Both the position numbers and the translations under genes were made by a program. 64,000 bases of DNA from Pseudomonas sp. TMP9 (GTDB lineage Bacteria > Pseudomonadota > Gammaproteobacteria > Pseudomonadales > Pseudomonadaceae): positions 62,001 through 126,000 of the forward strand of contig NZ_CP149803.1 in NCBI RefSeq assembly GCF_037943105.1, read 5' to 3'. Numbering within the stretch: the stretch's first letter is position 1; each line of letters opens with the position of its first letter. A model generated the notes under the pieces. It did not search any database. It was not told the DNA's origin and saw only the letters and a list, made by a program, of their open reading frames with translations. Shown here one piece after another: positions 1-19,234 of the stretch.

Positions 1-1
1 T

Positions 2-193
2 GATGCTGATGCCGCGCTGATTCGTCAAACCGTCGCCGCAGTCGGTGGCCACGCCACCTGCTTCACGGCCGGCCACTGCGACAGCCCATTTCATCCGCTG
101 GCTGCACCGCTGCTGCGCTATCACCGCCAGCTTAAAACCCAGCTCGACCCCCAGGGCATCTTCAACCCTGGCCGCCTGTATGCCGAGGTATAG
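2..193 (+). CDS. glcE: Glycolate oxidase FAD-binding subunit GlcE, C-terminal end (partial)
   Basis: The window opens inside this gene; only the last 63 codons are present, read in the frame that ends at TAG 191-193. The translation ends with LDPQGIFNPGRLY, the C-terminal signature of FAD-linked oxidases of the GlcD/GlcE type (FAD-binding type 4). With GlcD and GlcF, GlcE forms the membrane-associated glycolate oxidase that converts glycolate to glyoxylate. It lies two bases before glcF, so the two are surely co-transcribed. The identity as GlcE rather than GlcD rests on its position directly before glcF. Confidence 0.88.
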   Translation, partial: DADAALIRQTVAAVGGHATCFTAGHCDSPFHPLAAPLLRYHRQLKTQLDPQGIFNPGRLYAEV

Positions 194-195
194 CT

Positions 196-1413
196 GTGCA
201 GACCAATCTGAGTGAACAAGCCAAGCTACTGCCGCGCGCCGAGGAAGCTGAACGTATCCTGCGCAGCTGTGTGCATTGTGGCTTCTGCAATGCCACCTGC
301 CCGACCTATCAACTGCTGGGCGACGAGCTGGACGGCCCGCGCGGGCGCATCTACCTGATCAAGCAGGTGCTTGAAGGCAATGAAGTCACCGTCAAGACCC
401 AGCTGCACTTAGACCGCTGCCTCACCTGTCGTAATTGTGAAACCACCTGCCCGTCGGGTGTGGAGTACCACAACCTGCTGGATATCGGCCGCGCCGTGGT
501 CGATGCCGCCGTGCCCCGTCCGCTGGCGCAACGGGTATTGAGTGAAAGCCTGCGTGCGGTAGTGCCACATGCGGGGCTGTTCAAAAGCCTGACTCAGGTC
601 GGCCAAATATTCCGCCCGCTGCTACCGGCCAGCCTCAAGGCCAAGCTTCCGCGCGCGGTAACTGCTGCCAAACCACGTCCTGAACCACGCCATGCCCGCC
701 GGGTGCTGATGCTGGAAGGCTGCGTACAGCCTGGCCTGGCACCCAACACCAATGCCGCCACGGCGCGGGTACTTGACCGCTTAAACATCAGCGTCACGCC
801 GATCTATGAAGCCGGCTGCTGCGGCGCGGTGGACTACCACCTCAACGCCCAAGAGCGAGGCTTGCAGCGCGCCCGGAAAAATATCGACGCCTGGTGGCCG
901 GCTATTGAACAGGGCGCTGAGGCCATCGTGCAGACAGCCAGCGGTTGCGGTGCCTTCGTCAAAGATTATGGCCACTTGTTGGCGCAGGATTTCGCCTATG
1001 CGGAGAAGGCCAAGCGCGTCAGTACGTTGGCCAAAGACTTGGTTGAGGTGCTGAGCGCCGAACCGCTGGAGCAGTTGGGTGTGCACGCCGACAAGCGTTT
1101 GGCCTTCCATTGCCCTTGCACCTTGCAGCATGCGCAAAAGCTCGGCGGCGCGGTCGAGGGCGTGCTCAGCCGCCTTGGCTTCGGCTTGACCGCCGTGCCC
1201 GACAGCCACCTGTGCTGCGGTTCGGCCGGGACCTATTCGCTGACCCAGCCGGAGCTGTCCAAGCAGCTGCGCGACAACAAAATGAATGCCCTGGAAAGCG
1301 GCAAGCCGGAGGTGATTGTCACCGCTAACATCGGCTGCCAAACCCACCTCGACGGCGCCGGTCGCACCCCTGTGCGGCACTGGATCGAACTCGTCGAAGA
1401 AGCCCTGAATTAA
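196..1413 (+). CDS. glcF: Glycolate oxidase iron-sulfur subunit GlcF
   Basis: This 405-residue protein carries two ferredoxin-type 4Fe-4S motifs near the N terminus (Cys25, 28, 31, 35 with the following Pro, and Cys75, 78, 81, 85 with Pro) and two cysteine-rich CCG domains further on (GCCGAV near residue 209 and LCCGSAG near 340). This is the architecture and length of GlcF, which passes electrons from the flavin subunits of glycolate oxidase to the quinone pool at the inner membrane. The start is GTG at 196, two bases after the glcE stop, with a GAGG ribosome site lying inside the end of glcE; no upstream ATG fits. It is the third gene of a glcDEFG-type operon. Confidence 0.96.
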
Positions 1414-1425
1414 CCGGAGAACACC

Positions 1426-1827
1426 ATGCTAAGCAAAGCCGTTTTGAGCCAAACCGAAGTCAACCGCATGCTCACTGCTGCGCGCAGCGAAGCCGAAAAA
1501 AATCAGTGGGCGGTGACCATCAGCGTGGTTGACGACGGCGGCCACTTGCTTGCCCTGGAGCGTCTCGACGGTTGCGCCCCAATTGGCGCTTACATTTCGA
1601 GCGAAAAAGCGCGCAGCGCTGCCATCGGCCGCCGCGAAACCAAGAGCTTTGAGGACATGGTCAATGGCGGACGTACGGCATTCCTGTCCGCGCCATTGGT
1701 GACCTCGCTGGAAGGCGGCGTGCCGGTGATCGTTGACGGCCAGGTGATCGGTGCATTGGGTGTTTCCGGAGTCAAAGCTGATCAAGACGCGCAAGTGGCT
1801 AAAGCCGGCGTCGCTGCACTGAACTGA
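1426..1827 (+). CDS. glcG: GlcG/HbpS family protein
   Basis: A 133-residue protein of the GlcG/HbpS family (formerly DUF336): it has the VVDDGGHLLALERLDG and IVDGQVIGALGVSG segments typical of the family, which in other bacteria includes a heme-binding protein and cofactor-binding proteins. In glycolate operons GlcG always accompanies the oxidase but its exact role is not established. The ATG at 1426 follows glcF by 12 bases and has a CGGAG ribosome site. Its position between glcF and glcB is the same as in Escherichia coli glcDEFGBA. Confidence 0.93.
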   Translation: MLSKAVLSQTEVNRMLTAARSEAEKNQWAVTISVVDDGGHLLALERLDGCAPIGAYISSEKARSAAIGRRETKSFEDMVNGGRTAFLSAPLVTSLEGGVPVIVDGQVIGALGVSGVKADQDAQVAKAGVAALN

Positions 1828-1838
1828 TTCGCATAGTG

Positions 1839-1869
1839 AGGCGGTTCCTCAGTGATCCGCCAACCGCCT
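1839..1869 (+). other. Hairpin in the glcG-glcB gap
   Basis: AGGCGGTT (1839-1846) and AACCGCCT (1862-1869) are perfect inverted repeats around a 15-base loop. No T run follows, so it is more likely a processing or partial attenuation structure in the glc transcript than a full terminator. It lies about 35 bases before the glcB start. Confidence 0.45.
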
Positions 1870-1904
1870 AGCGTCTCACCTGTACTGATTTTGGAGAGTG
1901 GAAA

Positions 1905-4085
1905 ATGACCGATCGCGTGAACTGCCAGCGCCTGCAAGTGGCCGCCAACCTGCAACGTTTTATCGACGAGGAAGTGCTGCCGGGCAGCGGTATTGAGCGC
2001 GACGCCTTCTGGGCCGGCTTCGATGCCCTGGTGCACGACCTAGCGCCGCAAAACCGTGCGCTGCTGGCCGAACGTGATGCCCTGCAAGTCCAGCTGGACA
2101 CCTGGCACCGCGAGCATCCCGGCCCGATTAGCGACATGCCGGCGTATCGCACGTTCCTCGAATCCATCGGCTACCTGTTGCCGCAACCTGACAGCGTGCA
2201 GGCCAGCACCGCCAACGTCGACAGCGAGATCACCACTCAAGCTGGCCCGCAGTTGGTGGTGCCGGTGATGAATGCGCGCTACGCGCTCAACGCGGCCAAC
2301 GCCCGCTGGGGTTCGCTCTACGATGCCTTGTATGGCACCGACGCTATCTCTGAAGACGACGGCACGCAAAAGGGTCCGGGCTATAACCAGGTGCGCGGCG
2401 ACAAGGTAATTGCCTTTGCTCGTGCCTTCCTCGATCAGTCCGCACCATTAGCCACTGGCTCCCACGTCGATTCGACGGGCTATCAGGTGATTGATGGCCA
2501 GCTGCACGTCAGCCTGAAAGATGGCAGCCACAGTGGCCTGGCTCAGGCCGAAAAATTTGTCGGTTTTCAGGGTGAGGCCAGCGCGCCGACGGCGGTGCTG
2601 CTGAAGAACAACGGCCTGCATGTAGAAATCCAGATTGATGCCAGCAGCCAGATCGGTGCTACCGACGCGGCTGGGGTCAAGGACCTGCTGCTCGAGTCGG
2701 CGCTGTCGACCATTCTCGACTGTGAGGACTCCGTGGCAGCAGTCGACGCCGACGACAAGGTGGTGATCTACCGCAACTGGCTCGGCCTGATGAAAGGTGA
2801 CCTCAGCGAAGAACTGGAGAAGGGCGGTAAGCGCATTGTCCGTCGCCTCAACCCCGACCGCGAGTACACCGCCGCTGCCGGTGGCGAACTGAAGCTGCAT
2901 GGTCGTTCGCTGCTGTTTGTGCGCAACGTCGGCCACCTGATGAGCAACCCGGCGATCCTCGATGGCGAGGGGAACGAGATCCCTGAGGGTATTCTTGATG
3001 GTGTGATGACCAGCTTGTGTGCGCTGCACGACTTGCAGCGTCGTGGTAACTCGCGCACCGGTAGCGTGTATATCGTTAAACCGAAGATGCACGGCCCGGC
3101 CGAAGTGGCCTTTGCCGATCAGCTGTTCGGTCGGATTGAAGACCTGCTACAGCTGCCACGTCACACCTTGAAAATGGGCATCATGGACGAGGAGCGTCGC
3201 ACCAGTATCAACCTCAAGGCCTGCATCGCGGCCGCTGGCGCCCGCGTGGCTTTTATCAACACCGGCTTCCTTGACCGCACCGGTGACGAGATGCACACCG
3301 CCATGCAAGCCGGCGCCATGCTGCGCAAAGGCGACATGAAGAGCAGCGCTTGGATCCAGGCGTATGAGCGCAACAACGTGCTGGTGGGCCTGAGCTGTGG
3401 CTTGCGTGGGCGCGCGCAAATCGGCAAGGGCATGTGGGCCATGCCGGACCTGATGGCCGCCATGCTTGAACAGAAAATTGGCCACCCTAAAGCCGGCGCC
3501 AACACCGCCTGGGTACCGTCGCCAACCGCCGCCACCTTGCACGCCATGCACTACCACCAGGTGGATGTGCAGGCGGTGCAGCGTGAGCTGGAAGCCATCG
3601 ACTTCAATAGCCAGCGCGATGAGCTGCTCAACGGGCTGCTCAGCGTGCCGGTGGCGGCCGAGCGCAACTGGAGCGCCAGCCAGATTCAGCAAGAGTTGGA
3701 CAACAACTGCCAAGGCATCCTCGGTTATGTGGTGCGCTGGGTGGAGCAGGGCGTGGGTTGCTCCAAGGTGCCGGATATCCACAACGTCGGCCTGATGGAA
3801 GACCGCGCCACCTTGCGTATCTCCAGCCAGCACATCGCCAACTGGTTACACCATGCGGTGATCAATGAGGCCCAGGTACGCGAAAGCCTTGAGCGCATGG
3901 CCAAGGTGGTCGATCAGCAGAACGCCAGTGACAGCGCTTACCGGCCAATGGCAACGGACTACAGCCAGTCGGCAGCCTTCCAAGCGGCCAGTGATTTGGT
4001 GTTCAAAGGCCTTGAGCAACCCAGCGGCTATACCGAGCCATTGCTGCATGCCTGGCGCCTTCGTTTCAAACAACAAGAGGGCTAA
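1905..4085 (+). CDS. glcB: Malate synthase G
   Basis: The 726-residue product matches the usual length of malate synthase G (about 723), a single-chain enzyme condensing glyoxylate with acetyl-CoA to malate in the cytosol. Family signatures are visible: [16 protein letters not shown] near residue 268, [15 protein letters not shown] near 386 and [11 protein letters not shown] near 425, which carries the acidic metal and glyoxylate-binding residues. The ATG at 1905 is preceded by TTGGAGAG. It lies inside the glycolate operon, 77 bases after glcG, so glyoxylate made by GlcDEF would be consumed by its product. In P. aeruginosa, from memory, glcB lies away from glcDEFG, so this arrangement resembles E. 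coli. Confidence 0.97.
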
Positions 4086-4104
4086 ATAGGCTCGGCTGTT
4101 AAAG

Positions 4105-4133
4105 CGCCCCGTCAGACTCGTGCTGCCGGGGCG
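4105..4133 (+). other. GC-rich hairpin after glcB
   Basis: CGCCCCG (4105-4111) pairs perfectly with CGGGGCG (4127-4133) around a 15-base loop. The sequence after it (ATTGAG) has no T run, so it may weaken rather than end transcription between glcB and the permease gene. Confidence 0.4.
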
Positions 4134-4143
4134 ATTGAGCATT

Positions 4144-4175
4144 GATGATGGCGGGATATCCCCCGTTCCATCATC
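4144..4175 (+). other. Second hairpin between glcB and the permease gene
   Basis: GATGATGG (4144-4151) and CCATCATC (4168-4175) are perfect inverted repeats, and part of the interior (CGGG...CCCG) can pair too, giving a long stem with a short loop around ATAT. There is no T run. It lies about 115 bases before the permease start and could protect the upstream mRNA or form part of the leader of the permease gene. Confidence 0.45.
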
Positions 4176-4289
4176 CAAGGAACTGCTAAAGGTTGGCTGA
4201 GAATGTCTCGGTGGCCCAGCAGGTCCGTGTGCGAGGCACCGGGTATCCCCGGAACACTGTGGTTCACAATAACAAATAGGAACCAACTC

Positions 4290-4976
4290 ATGAGTCAAAC
4301 ACTGCTGTCGATACTGGCCTTTGTGCCACTGGTACTGGCGGGTGTGCTGCTGATCGGCTTTCGCTGGCCAGCCAAGTACGCTATGCCGGTGGTCTTCCTG
4401 CTCACCGCGATCATTGGTCTAACGTCCTGGGATATGTCCTTCAATCGGGTCTTGGCGTCCAGCCTGCAAGGCCTGGTTCTCACCGCCGCGATCCTCTGGA
4501 TCATCTTTGGTGCGATCCTGCTGCTCAACACCCTCAAGCATTCAGGTGGCATCGCAGCCATTCGCCGTGGCTTCGCCACCATCACCCCCGACCGTCGCGT
4601 CCAGGCGCTGATCGTTGCATGGCTGTTTGGTTGCTTTATCGAGGGTGCCTCGGGCTTTGGTACGCCGGCTGCTGTGGCGGCGCCGTTGTTGGTGGCACTG
4701 GGTTTCCCGGCGCTGGCGGCAGTGGTGTTGGGCATGATGGTGCAATCCACGCCGGTATCCTTCGGTGCTGTGGGTACACCGATTCTGGTGGGTGTGGCTG
4801 GTGGTCTGGACCAGGCGGGCATGTCCGCGCAGCTGGCCACACTCGGCAGTAGCTGGGAGGTGTTCTTCCACCTGATCTTCTCGCGCGTGGCGATCACCCA
4901 CGGCCTGATCGGCATCTTTATGCCACTGATCATGCTGTCGATCATGACGCGCTTCTTCGGCAAGAATCAGTCGTAG
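4290..4976 (+). CDS. N-terminal half of the GlcA/LldP permease, up to the TAG
   Basis: The 228-residue product begins [18 protein letters not shown] and holds the first half of the membrane spans and the substrate-region signature EGASGFGTP. The ATG at 4290 is chosen over upstream starts because it has AGGA eight bases before it, begins directly with a membrane span as in the family, and the codons before it (from 4203) encode nothing family-like. Alone it would lack the C-terminal membrane domain. Confidence 0.7.
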
Positions 4977-4991
4977 AAAGAAGGCTTGGAA

Positions 4992-5993
4992 ATGGCCCCG
5001 TTTGCCATCTTCACTGGCTTGGCTTTCGTCATCCCTTACATCGCCGCCGGGGTGTTCCTCGGTCCGGAATTCCCGTCGATGATCGGTGCGATGGTTGGCC
5101 TGGCGATTGTGATCCCCGCGGCCAAGGCGGGCTTCTTGCTGCCTAAGACCACTTGGGACTTTGCGCCGGCCAGCGAGTGGCCAGCCGAGTGGATGGGCAA
5201 GATCGAGATGAAGCTCGACGACATCGCCGGTAAAACGCCGATCTCCGTACGCATGGCCTGGGCACCTTATGTGCTGCTAGCGATATTCCTGGTGGCATCG
5301 CGCGTCTTCCCTGAGCTGAAGGCGGCCTTGCTGTCGGTCAGTATCGGCTGGATCGACATCCTCGGTGAAACCGGTATCTCCGGCAAACTTGAGCCGTTAT
5401 ACCTGCCGGGCGGCATCCTGATCATGGTGGTGCTGGTCACCGCGTTGCTGCACCGCATGCGGTTGTCCGAATTGGGTGCCGCGATCAACGAGTCGAGCCG
5501 TACCCTACTGGGCGCGGGTTTCGTGCTGATCTTCACCATTCCGATGGTGCGGATTCTGATCAACTCCGGCGTTAACGGAGCTGATCTGGTGTCGATGCCG
5601 GTGGCCATGGCGCAACTGGTGGCCGACAGCGTGGGCGGTGTTTATCCGTTCTTCGCGCCGGCTGTGGGTGCGTTGGGGGCCTTTATCGCCGGTTCCAACA
5701 CCGTGTCCAACTTGATGCTGTCGCAGTTCCAGTTCAATGCGGCCAGTCTGCTCGGAGTATCCGGTGCGATGATGGTGGCCGCGCAATCGGTGGGCGCGGC
5801 GGCGGGTAACATGATCGCCATTCACAACGTGGTAGCGGCTTCGGCCACTGTGGGTCTGCTGGGTCGCGAAGGGATCACCCTGCGCAAAACCATTCTGCCG
5901 ACCCTCTACTACCTTGTTGCTGCTGGTAGCATCACCATGATTGCGATGTACGGCATGGGTATTTCTGATCCGTTGATGCAAGCGGCGGGTTAA
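4992..5993 (+). CDS. C-terminal half of the GlcA/LldP permease, possible re-initiation product
   Basis: From ATG 4992, 333 residues continue the permease in the same frame right after the TAG. The bases just after the stop, AAAGAAGG (4977-4984), are a good Shine-Dalgarno match seven bases before this ATG; a TTG at 4986 is another possible start. A ribosome ending at 4976 could therefore restart here and make the second half as a separate membrane protein. Whether two halves assemble is unknown. The conserved segments FIAGSNTVSNLMLSQ and VGAAAGNMIAIHNVVAA are present and undamaged. Confidence 0.65.
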   Translation: MAPFAIFTGLAFVIPYIAAGVFLGPEFPSMIGAMVGLAIVIPAAKAGFLLPKTTWDFAPASEWPAEWMGKIEMKLDDIAGKTPISVRMAWAPYVLLAIFLVASRVFPELKAALLSVSIGWIDILGETGISGKLEPLYLPGGILIMVVLVTALLHRMRLSELGAAINESSRTLLGAGFVLIFTIPMVRILINSGVNGADLVSMPVAMAQLVADSVGGVYPFFAPAVGALGAFIAGSNTVSNLMLSQFQFNAASLLGVSGAMMVAAQSVGAAAGNMIAIHNVVAASATVGLLGREGITLRKTILPTLYYLVAAGSITMIAMYGMGISDPLMQAAG

Positions 5994-6041
5994 GCGGCCC
6001 ACCTCTGCCCGCTATACCGCGGGCAGAACCCTAAGTTGATT

Positions 6042-6065
6042 GGCCGCCCATGAGGCGGCCTTTCT
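6042..6065 (+). terminator. Intrinsic terminator of the glc operon
   Basis: GGCCGCC (6042-6048) and GGCGGCC (6054-6060) pair perfectly around a five-base loop and are followed by TTTCT. A second hairpin (CTGCCCG 6005-6011 with CGGGCAG 6020-6026) lies just upstream. Together they end the glycolate operon before rubA. Confidence 0.75.
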
Positions 6066-6142
6066 CGTCCTGCGGCTTGGCGCATCTGCGTATATACGGT
6101 AGTTTCCGCAGCGCAACAGCCGTGTGATTCCCTGAGGTAGTT

Positions 6143-6310
6143 ATGAAAAAGTGGCAATGTGTGGTCTGTGGACTGATTTACGACGAAAGCCAGGGCTGGC
6201 CTGATGACGGCATCGCCGCCGGTACGCTGTGGCAGGATGTCCCCGAAGACTGGCTGTGCCCTGACTGCGGTGTGGGCAAGTTGGATTTCGAGATGATCGA
6301 AATCGGTTGA
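6143..6310 (+). CDS. rubA: Rubredoxin
   Basis: This 55-residue protein ([10 protein letters not shown]...) is a classical rubredoxin: the single iron is held by Cys6, Cys9, Cys39 and Cys42 in CxxCG and CPxCG motifs, with the typical PEDWLCP segment between. It carries single electrons in the cytosol from rubredoxin reductase to acceptors such as alkane hydroxylases or peroxide-detoxifying enzymes. The ATG has TGAGG upstream. In P. aeruginosa two rubredoxin genes precede the reductase (PA5351 and PA5350, from memory); here only one is present, and it is separated from the reductase gene by a terminator. Confidence 0.97.
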
Positions 6311-6372
6311 GCCCACGCTAAGCCAAGCGCGGCTGACGTTGTAGCCATGCTACATGGCCTTCTTCAGACGAT

Positions 6373-6400
6373 AAAACGGCGACCTGTGGGTCGCCGTTTT
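6373..6400. terminator. Bidirectional-looking intrinsic terminator after rubA
   Basis: AAAA, then CGGCGACC (6377-6384), a TGTG loop, GGTCGCCG (6389-6396) and TTTT: a perfect eight-base stem with an A run before and a T run after, so it can work on either strand. It separates rubA from the reductase gene, implying that the latter has its own promoter in 6401-6571. Confidence 0.88.
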
Positions 6401-6571
6401 GCTGGTTAAGAGCGGCCCGGCATCGTTTACGCGGCTCGTCATGCCGATTAATGGGGCTTCAAAAGCTCCGCCAGCGCGCTTAATTTGGCGCTGTTCAAAC
6501 GCGCCTAAGTCTGACCATCGGTCCTGAATTTTTATGGCGTATTAACCTGCGCCCCATGCGAGGAATACAGC

Positions 6572-7720
6572 ATGAATGCCCCTGTCGTTATCATCGGTAC
6601 TGGCCTAGCCGGCTACAACCTCGCCCGTGAGTTTCGCAAGCTCGACAGCGAAACGCCGTTGTTATTGATCACCGCAGACGACGGCCGCTCGTATTCCAAG
6701 CCGATGTTGTCCACCGGTTTCGCGAAGAATAAAGACGCTGACGGCCTAAGCATGGCTGAGCCCGGTGCGATGGCTGAGCAGTTGAAAGCGGAAATTCGTA
6801 CCCATACGCGTATCGGCGGCATTGATCCGGGGCACAAGCAGCTGTGGATAGGCGAGGAGGCGGTGGCCTATCGGGATGTGGTGCTGGCCTTGGGCGCTGA
6901 AGTGATTCGCGTGCCGGTGCAGGGTGATGCTGAGGATGCCATTTTCTCCATCAATGATTTGCAAGACTACGCACGTTTTCGCAGCGCGGCGGCCGGCAAG
7001 CAGCGCGTGCTGCTGCTCGGCGCTGGGTTAATCGGCTGTGAGTTTGCCAATGATCTGATCCTCGGCGGTTATCAGGTTGAATTGGTCGCGCCTTGCGAGC
7101 AGGTAATGCCCGGCTTGCTGCATCCGGCCGCTGCTGCAGCGGTGCAGGCAGGGTTGCAAGGCTTGGGCGCGCGTTTTCACCTCGGGCCGATATTGGCCAG
7201 CCTGAACCACAAAGATGATGCGCTGCAGGCGCAGCTGTCTGATGGCACGCTGATCAACTGTGATCTGGTGCTTTCGGCGGTGGGTCTGCGCCCGCGCATT
7301 GAGCTGGCAGCCGCTGCTGGCTTGGCGATCAATCGCGGCGTGGTGGTCGACCGCCAGCTGCGCACCTCACACGCCAATATCTATGCCCTAGGCGATTGCG
7401 CCGAGGTGGACGGTATCAACCTGTTGTATGTCATGCCGCTGATGACCAGTGCCCGAGCGTTAGCACAAACCCTCGCCGGTAACCTGACAGCGGTGACCTA
7501 TGGGCCGATGCCAGTGACAGTGAAAACTCCGGTCTGCCCGCTAGTGGTATCGCCACTACCGCGTGGGATGCAGGGCGAGTGGAGCGTGGAGGGCACGGGT
7601 GCTGACATCAAAGCGCTGTGCCACGACAGCAGCGGCGCGCTGCTCGGTTATGCGCTCACCGGGACAGCTGTGCAGGAAAAATTGACCTTGAATAAGCGTC
7701 TGCCGGCGCTATTGGCCTGA
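6572..7720 (+). CDS. rubB: Rubredoxin-NAD(+) reductase
   Basis: A 382-residue FAD-dependent pyridine nucleotide-disulfide family oxidoreductase without the redox disulfide. It shows an N-terminal FAD motif ([14 protein letters not shown], residues 6-19), an NAD-binding motif ([15 protein letters not shown], near 150) and the second FAD motif ending in [11 protein letters not shown] (near 272). Length and motifs match the AlkT/RubB family, which passes electrons from NADH to rubredoxin. The ATG at 6572 has GAGGAAT upstream. The neighbouring rubA supports the specific name over other ferredoxin reductases. Confidence 0.95.
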
Positions 7721-17790: not shown

Positions 17791-19151
17791 CCACTCTGAG
17801 CACCAAGGCGCTGAGCTCTGTTGGCCCGGCGAACAGCATTGCCCGCAACGAAGAAACCCATCCGTTGACCTGGCGCCTGCGCGATGACGGCCAGCCGGTG
17901 TGGCTTGCCGAATACCAGCAAAAAAATGGTTATGCAGCTGCGCGCAAAGCGCTGAGCGAAATGGCTCAGGCTGACATCGTGCAAACGGTGAAAGAATCCG
18001 GGCTCAAAGGACGAGGCGGCGCTGGCTTCCCTACCGGCGTGAAGTGGGGCCTGATGCCAGCGGATGAGGCCATGAACATCCGCTACCTGCTGTGCAACGC
18101 GGACGAAATGGAGCCCAACACCTGGAAGGACCGCCTGCTGATGGAGCAGTTGCCGCACCTGCTGGTGGAAGGCATGCTGATCTCCGCGCGGGCACTCAAA
18201 GCCTATCGCGGTTACATCTTTCTGCGTGGCGAATACGTCGATGCGGCGATCAACCTTAATCGCGCCATCGAGGAAGCCAAGGCCGCGGGCCTGCTCGGCA
18301 AAAACATCCTTGGCAGCGGTTTTGATTTCGAGTTGATCGTGCACACCGGTGCCGGTCGTTACATCTGCGGTGAAGAAACCGCGCTGATCAATTCCCTTGA
18401 AGGCCGCCGCGCCAACCCGCGCGCTAAACCGCCATTCCCGGCTGTAGTCGGTGTATGGGGCAAGCCAACGTGCGTGAATAACGTCGAAACCCTGTGCAAC
18501 GTGCCGGCCATCGTCGGTCATGGTGTCGATTGGTACAAAAGCTTGGCCCGCCCGGACAGCGAAGACCACGGCACCAAGTTGATGGGCTTCTCCGGCAAAG
18601 TGAAAAGACCTGGCGTCTGGGAATTGCCCTTTGGCGTCAGCGCCCGCGAGTTGTTCGAAGACTATGCCGGCGGCATGCGTGATGGCTACAAGCTGAAATG
18701 CTGGCAACCCGGCGGCGCTGGTACCGGCTTTTTGCTGCCCGAGCACCTCGATGCGTTGATGTACGCCGGCGGTATCGGCAAGGTCGGTACGCGTATGGGC
18801 ACCGGTCTGGCATTGGCTGTCGATCACACGGTCAGCATGGTGTCGTTGCTGCGCAACATGGAAGAGTTCTTTTCCCGCGAGTCCTGCGGTTGGTGCACGC
18901 CCTGCCGGGATGGCCTGCCTTGGAGTGTGAAAATCCTTCGCGCGCTGGAACATGGCGAAGGCACTCAGCAAGACATCGACACCCTGCTTGGCTTGGTTAA
19001 CTTCCTCGGCCCTGGCAAAACATTTTGTGCGCACGCACCGGGTGCTGTTGAGCCGCTGGGCAGCGCGATCAAGTATTTCCGCTCGGAGTTTGAGGCAGGC
19101 GTTGCCCATTCGACGGCTGCAGTCACGACGGGGCAATTCGTCCCCGCGTAA
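17787..19151 (+). CDS. nuoF: NADH-quinone oxidoreductase subunit F
   Basis: The 454-residue NADH- and FMN-binding subunit. The FMN loop [17 protein letters not shown] is near residue 72, [14 protein letters not shown] near 190, and the N3 4Fe-4S cluster motif [12 protein letters not shown] near 369. It oxidises NADH and starts electron flow in complex I. It overlaps nuoE by four bases. Downstream it is followed, unusually for this tight operon, by a 170-base spacer (see the repeat entry) before nuoG. Confidence 0.98.
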
Positions 19152-19234
19152 AAAATAGCAGGGAGCCATTTTTAACGTCGCGCAGCGACGGCCCGAAGGG
19201 TGGCCGCCATGCATGGCAAGCCATAAAAAATAGC
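19149..19234 (+). repeat. Segment bounded by 11-base direct repeats in the nuoF-nuoG spacer
   Basis: TAAAAAATAGC occurs at 19149-19159, where its TAA is the nuoF stop, and again at 19224-19234. The 64 bases between hold a perfect hairpin (CGTCGC 19176-19181, loop GCA, GCGACG 19185-19190) and a GC-rich stretch. The layout looks like a small inserted element flanked by a target duplication, or a local duplication. The rest of the spacer to 19321 has no recognisable gene; the bases GAAGAAACC before nuoG give only a weak ribosome site. Confidence 0.5.

Follow-up and report, generated by a model that had tools for sequence, protein, structure and literature searches.

A probable recent nonsense mutation in glcA at the end of the glc operon of Pseudomonas sp. 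TMP9

The GlcA and LldP permeases belong to the LctP family (PF02652, TIGR00795), members of which are encoded at the end of glcDEFGBA operons. In E. coli, the available text of PMC10272880 describes GlcA as importing glycolate and, less well, lactate, with substrates that overlap those of LldP. In-frame stops in bacterial genes have also been described: according to the available portion of Belinky et al. 2021 (PMC7918605) they are many and widespread, are associated with dN/dS below 1 and persist for a short time, and readthrough was suggested for them. Here we describe a glcA gene that is like the permeases ending glcDEFGBA operons in its full-length sequence, in its place after glcB and in the otherwise unchanged surroundings of Trp229, but that differs from them by one in-frame stop.

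The glcA reading frame and its in-frame TAG

The window is a 64,000-nucleotide stretch of DNA corresponding to contig positions 62001-126000 of the source genome, which is a single contig of 3.75 Mb with 100% completeness. Upstream of glcA lie a GntR-type regulator gene on the opposite strand and then glcD, glcE, glcF, glcG and glcB, all of which are uninterrupted; we take these glc genes to be such from the operon order and from family knowledge. The features of the window that bear on the argument are as follows.

196..1413, + strand: glcF, uninterrupted ORF of 405 aa
1426..1827, + strand: glcG, uninterrupted ORF of 133 aa
1905..4085, + strand: glcB (malate synthase G), uninterrupted ORF of 726 aa, the gene upstream of glcA in the operon
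4290..4976, + strand: first part of glcA, 228 residues followed by the premature stop; matches positions 3-202 of 522 of the PF02652 profile
4974..4976, + strand: premature stop, TAG in frame at codon 229, where 101 of 103 aligned loci have Trp
4977..5993, + strand: second part of glcA, frame still open; matches positions 207-521 of 522 of the PF02652 profile

Codons are counted from ATG 4290, the Met from which relatives align; the ORF list places the start of the first part at ATG 4203. The listed start of the second part is TTG 4986, and the candidate restart codon is ATG 4992. The sequence-only reading had claimed that the TAG was the single defect of an otherwise full-length permease gene, and our analysis agreed, as no other stop occurs in the frame (4290-5993) before the terminal TAA at 5991-5993. 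The two pieces matched consecutive stretches of Pfam PF02652 (Lactate_perm) with 155.6 and 178 bits, against a cut-off of 27, whereas each piece alone scored below the 341-bit cut-off of NCBIfam TIGR00795 (157 and 160 bits). Thus glcA matches the LctP family profile, with the TAG interrupting what would be one frame.

Age of the stop and reliability of the base

Inspection of the codon-229 column in 103 aligned loci, which take in six LldP-type paralogues (68-70% identical) and in which at least 8 contigs present in both collections are counted twice, revealed Trp in 101 cases, Leu in one and a stop in one, the window itself. Eight more loci gave short, chance-level matches that did not align and are outside the 103. 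Trp also occupied the site in 119 of 120 database proteins listed as relatives of the C-terminal half, the remaining one not covering it, and was invariant in an alignment of 32 members chosen from those 120. The expectation that homologues have tryptophan here is therefore borne out. The one exception, Leu in an uninterrupted permease of Stutzerimonas stutzeri CLN100, suggests that Trp229 may not be strictly required.

The nearest named relative found for this gene was Pseudomonas guineae LMG 24016, and the protein matching it (P0122) differed from the window's reading at five positions, codon 229 among them. A search with the N-terminal half found full-coverage matches of up to 83% identity, as well as one fragment at 89% identity with 74% coverage; no truncated form like the window's was seen among these best 120 of 1254 proteins. 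Sequences closely related to the window's own genome may be missing from such searches, and the intact comparison sequences come from other species, as no second strain of the TMP9 species was found. The plasmid collection contained one relative, 79.4% identical and annotated as an L-lactate permease. The stop was thus absent from the close relatives examined, as would be predicted for a young nonsense pseudogene.

We determined the strength of selection on both sides of the TAG, a check that the sequence-only reading had proposed. Purifying selection was strong on each: dN/dS against P. guineae was 0.010 and 0.022 for the two halves of glcA, compared with 0.045-0.046 for glcF, glcG and glcB. 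When changes were counted solely at codons at which two outgroups agreed, glcA had accumulated 26 synonymous and 4 nonsynonymous changes on the window's lineage. Under neutrality the whole branch would be expected to carry about 73 nonsynonymous changes in glcA, so that, if function was lost, the stop arose within at most about the last 13% of the branch. These substitution counts rule out an old, decaying pseudogene. They indicate that the stop, if real, is very young, there having been little decay since it arose. Low dN/dS is equally expected for a gene that died recently and for one that still works, and it is compatible with an error in the base as well.

Such an error in sequencing or assembly, in which case the organism has an intact glcA, is the main rival to a recent nonsense mutation, although we consider it unlikely. 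The rest of the gene has the appearance of a functional permease under selection, and the stop occurs in one assembly while being absent from the relatives examined, both of which are as an error would have it. Against this stands the single-contig genome of full completeness, together with the outcome of a wider comparison with P. guineae. We compared 981 P. guineae ORFs of at least 120 residues (1.2 Mb) with 464 kb of the TMP9 genome; 133 of them, comprising 45,456 residues, had a counterpart meeting the cut-offs. Stops were present in 11 of these comparisons, and the one in glcA was the only mid-gene stop. As for the other ten, one was found on inspection to reflect a reference ORF extended upstream (window 19316), two were in antisense ORFs, as judged by their coordinates relative to the listed ORFs, and seven fell within the opening 12% or the closing 6% of their reference ORFs; these seven, which were not inspected singly, were taken for wrong start or end calls. 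The sole frame change in the 133 comparisons was in an antisense ORF, leaving none that was credible, and a flag raised in the glcF region by a smaller first comparison also proved on inspection to be an upstream extension. An error-ridden assembly is not supported by these data. With glcA alone having a mid-gene stop, base and indel errors are infrequent in the assembly, although a single error is possible.

Comparison with P. guineae also revealed features of the surrounding DNA. A segment at about 59000-68313 of the contig, which contains the glc operon and corresponds to window positions 1-6313 plus about 3 kb upstream, is about 94% identical in DNA sequence to P. guineae, compared with about 82-87% overall in its flanks. 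Its edges are sharp, as if homologous recombination with a P. guineae-like strain had exchanged this segment. The region at 6143-6570 of the window differs in gene content: P. guineae has two tandem rubredoxin genes after glcA (7167-7334 and 7497-7670 of its locus, L033), whereas the window carries a single one (6143-6310). The copy that it lacks would lie exactly at the border of the high-identity segment. Elsewhere, a repeat of about 80 bases lies between two genes at about 19145-19230 of the window. For the P. guineae genome 14 more partial copies are listed, and the element resembles a REP-type intergenic repeat.

Restart behind the stop and readthrough

A gene that is split by a stop could still yield a transporter if translation of the second half restarted. 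The sequence immediately behind the TAG was of interest in this respect.

4980..4994, + strand: Shine-Dalgarno (SD)-like bases followed by ATG 4992, both regarded as ordinary coding sequence

The sequence-only reading had noted a ribosome-binding site here, ideally spaced for a restart. The bases AAAGAAGG and ATG 4992 are indeed present just behind the TAG, but they are not special. In four relatives whose gene is intact (L033, L034, L032 and L004), the 18-base stretch that follows the stop recurs with no more than two base changes, although not in the paralogue L029. Because this stretch encodes residues common to intact relatives, the site is inherited coding sequence and its presence is unsurprising; a site belonging to a two-part gene would instead be expected to be missing from intact relatives. 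In the long ORFs of the window, an SD-like 4-mer stands at a distance of 4-10 bases from 52 of 356 internal ATGs, and a start of this kind occurs within the ten codons after 1656 of 16887 codons (about 10%). TTG 4986 has no SD-like 4-mer. An attractive restart site behind a stop within a coding region is often just codons.

The position of the cut was also considered. The P. guineae protein has hydrophobic segments at residues 200-218 and 239-257, and by hydropathy the stop falls in the polar loop that separates them, as had been suggested from the sequence, and a low-confidence AlphaFold model of the P. guineae orthologue (mean pLDDT 57.5) agrees in placing residues 223-228 between helices. 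A PDB sequence search for a solved structure of a relative gave no match. To judge from its position, a split in this loop might be tolerated, and split membrane carriers can function in the laboratory. These points, together with the SD-like stretch ahead of ATG 4992, favor a two-part permease in which the second half is restarted at this codon and the two halves assemble. Such a permease is opposed by the restart bases, which four relatives have as codons within an uninterrupted gene, and by the finding that no relative among the 103 loci or the 120 listed for the C-terminal half shows a split at this place. Among the 120 listed matches to the N-terminal half, 16 end at residues 220-236, but the ends are widely scattered, just 3 lie at 227-229, and 14 of the 16 have 2 to 35 unmatched terminal residues, so that a shared split is not apparent. 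A two-part gene family was therefore rejected, no relative having such an arrangement in the 103 loci or in the 120 matches listed for either half. In the other species examined the gene is uninterrupted, the stop does not recur and the restart bases consist of conserved codons; at the level of other species, this is the outcome that the sequence-only reading had named as refuting. We regard a two-part permease as highly improbable. We give equally little credence to a freshly split transporter, in which a tolerant loop and a pre-existing in-frame SD-ATG pair would have allowed both halves to be made and to form a working glycolate permease. If the split protein did work, it would show how a one-piece carrier begins to turn into a two-piece one.

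Alternatively, some ribosomes might pass the TAG and produce a little full-length GlcA, perhaps as a lowered dose. The low dN/dS on either side of the stop fits this possibility, as do the short-lived stops with dN/dS below 1 for which readthrough is suggested in the available text of PMC7918605. The stop in glcA is like those stops in being in-frame, in having low dN/dS on both sides and in being apparently very young; however, that work, in its available text, centered on stops common to at least two species, whereas the TAG is found in one genome. None of the 57 tRNA places of the genome has the anticodon CUA that reads UAG, and a suppressor tRNA was accordingly rejected. Moreover, the stop was not in any relative found, and the branch since the stop is too short for selection to show. 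Readthrough, which had been put forward as one explanation of the TAG, thus has no positive evidence in its favor, and we consider it very unlikely.

The glc operon, the LldP paralogue and the probable fate of GlcA

Of the four explanations first offered (a new pseudogene, a sequencing error, readthrough or a two-part permease), the first is the best supported. Our results point to a recent nonsense mutation as the probable cause, disabling GlcA as the last product of an otherwise uninterrupted glcDEFGBA operon, with the loss perhaps buffered by LldP. The window's glcA seems to be a young broken gene of the ordinary kind, or else a base error, rather than a new two-part protein. Translation would halt after 228 residues, within the loop, and we infer from the sequence that no working GlcA would be made. 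Since glcA comes last in the operon, no polar effect of the stop on glcDEFGB is expected.

A second, intact PF02652 permease is encoded at contig positions 800018-801649. This LldP paralogue is 68% identical over 563 residues and adjoins two genes that we take from family knowledge to be lldD-like and lldR-like. The cell would tolerate the stop in glcA both because of the position of the gene and because LldP may carry glycolate besides lactate, a role that we infer for this species. A GlcE-like gene (E <= 1e-40) is present in 100 of 149 genomes of the genus, the TMP9 genome included, and 36 of these 100 have at most one PF02652 permease (34 have one and 2 have none), indicating that glycolate oxidase is commonly accompanied by a single permease of this family. 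In P. aeruginosa, however, expression of lldPDE is lowered by glycolate according to the available text of PMC11389411, which suggests that LldP may be a poor backup on glycolate.

If the allele is real, the glcA gene of TMP9 would represent a clean and very young loss of one of two LctP-family permeases.
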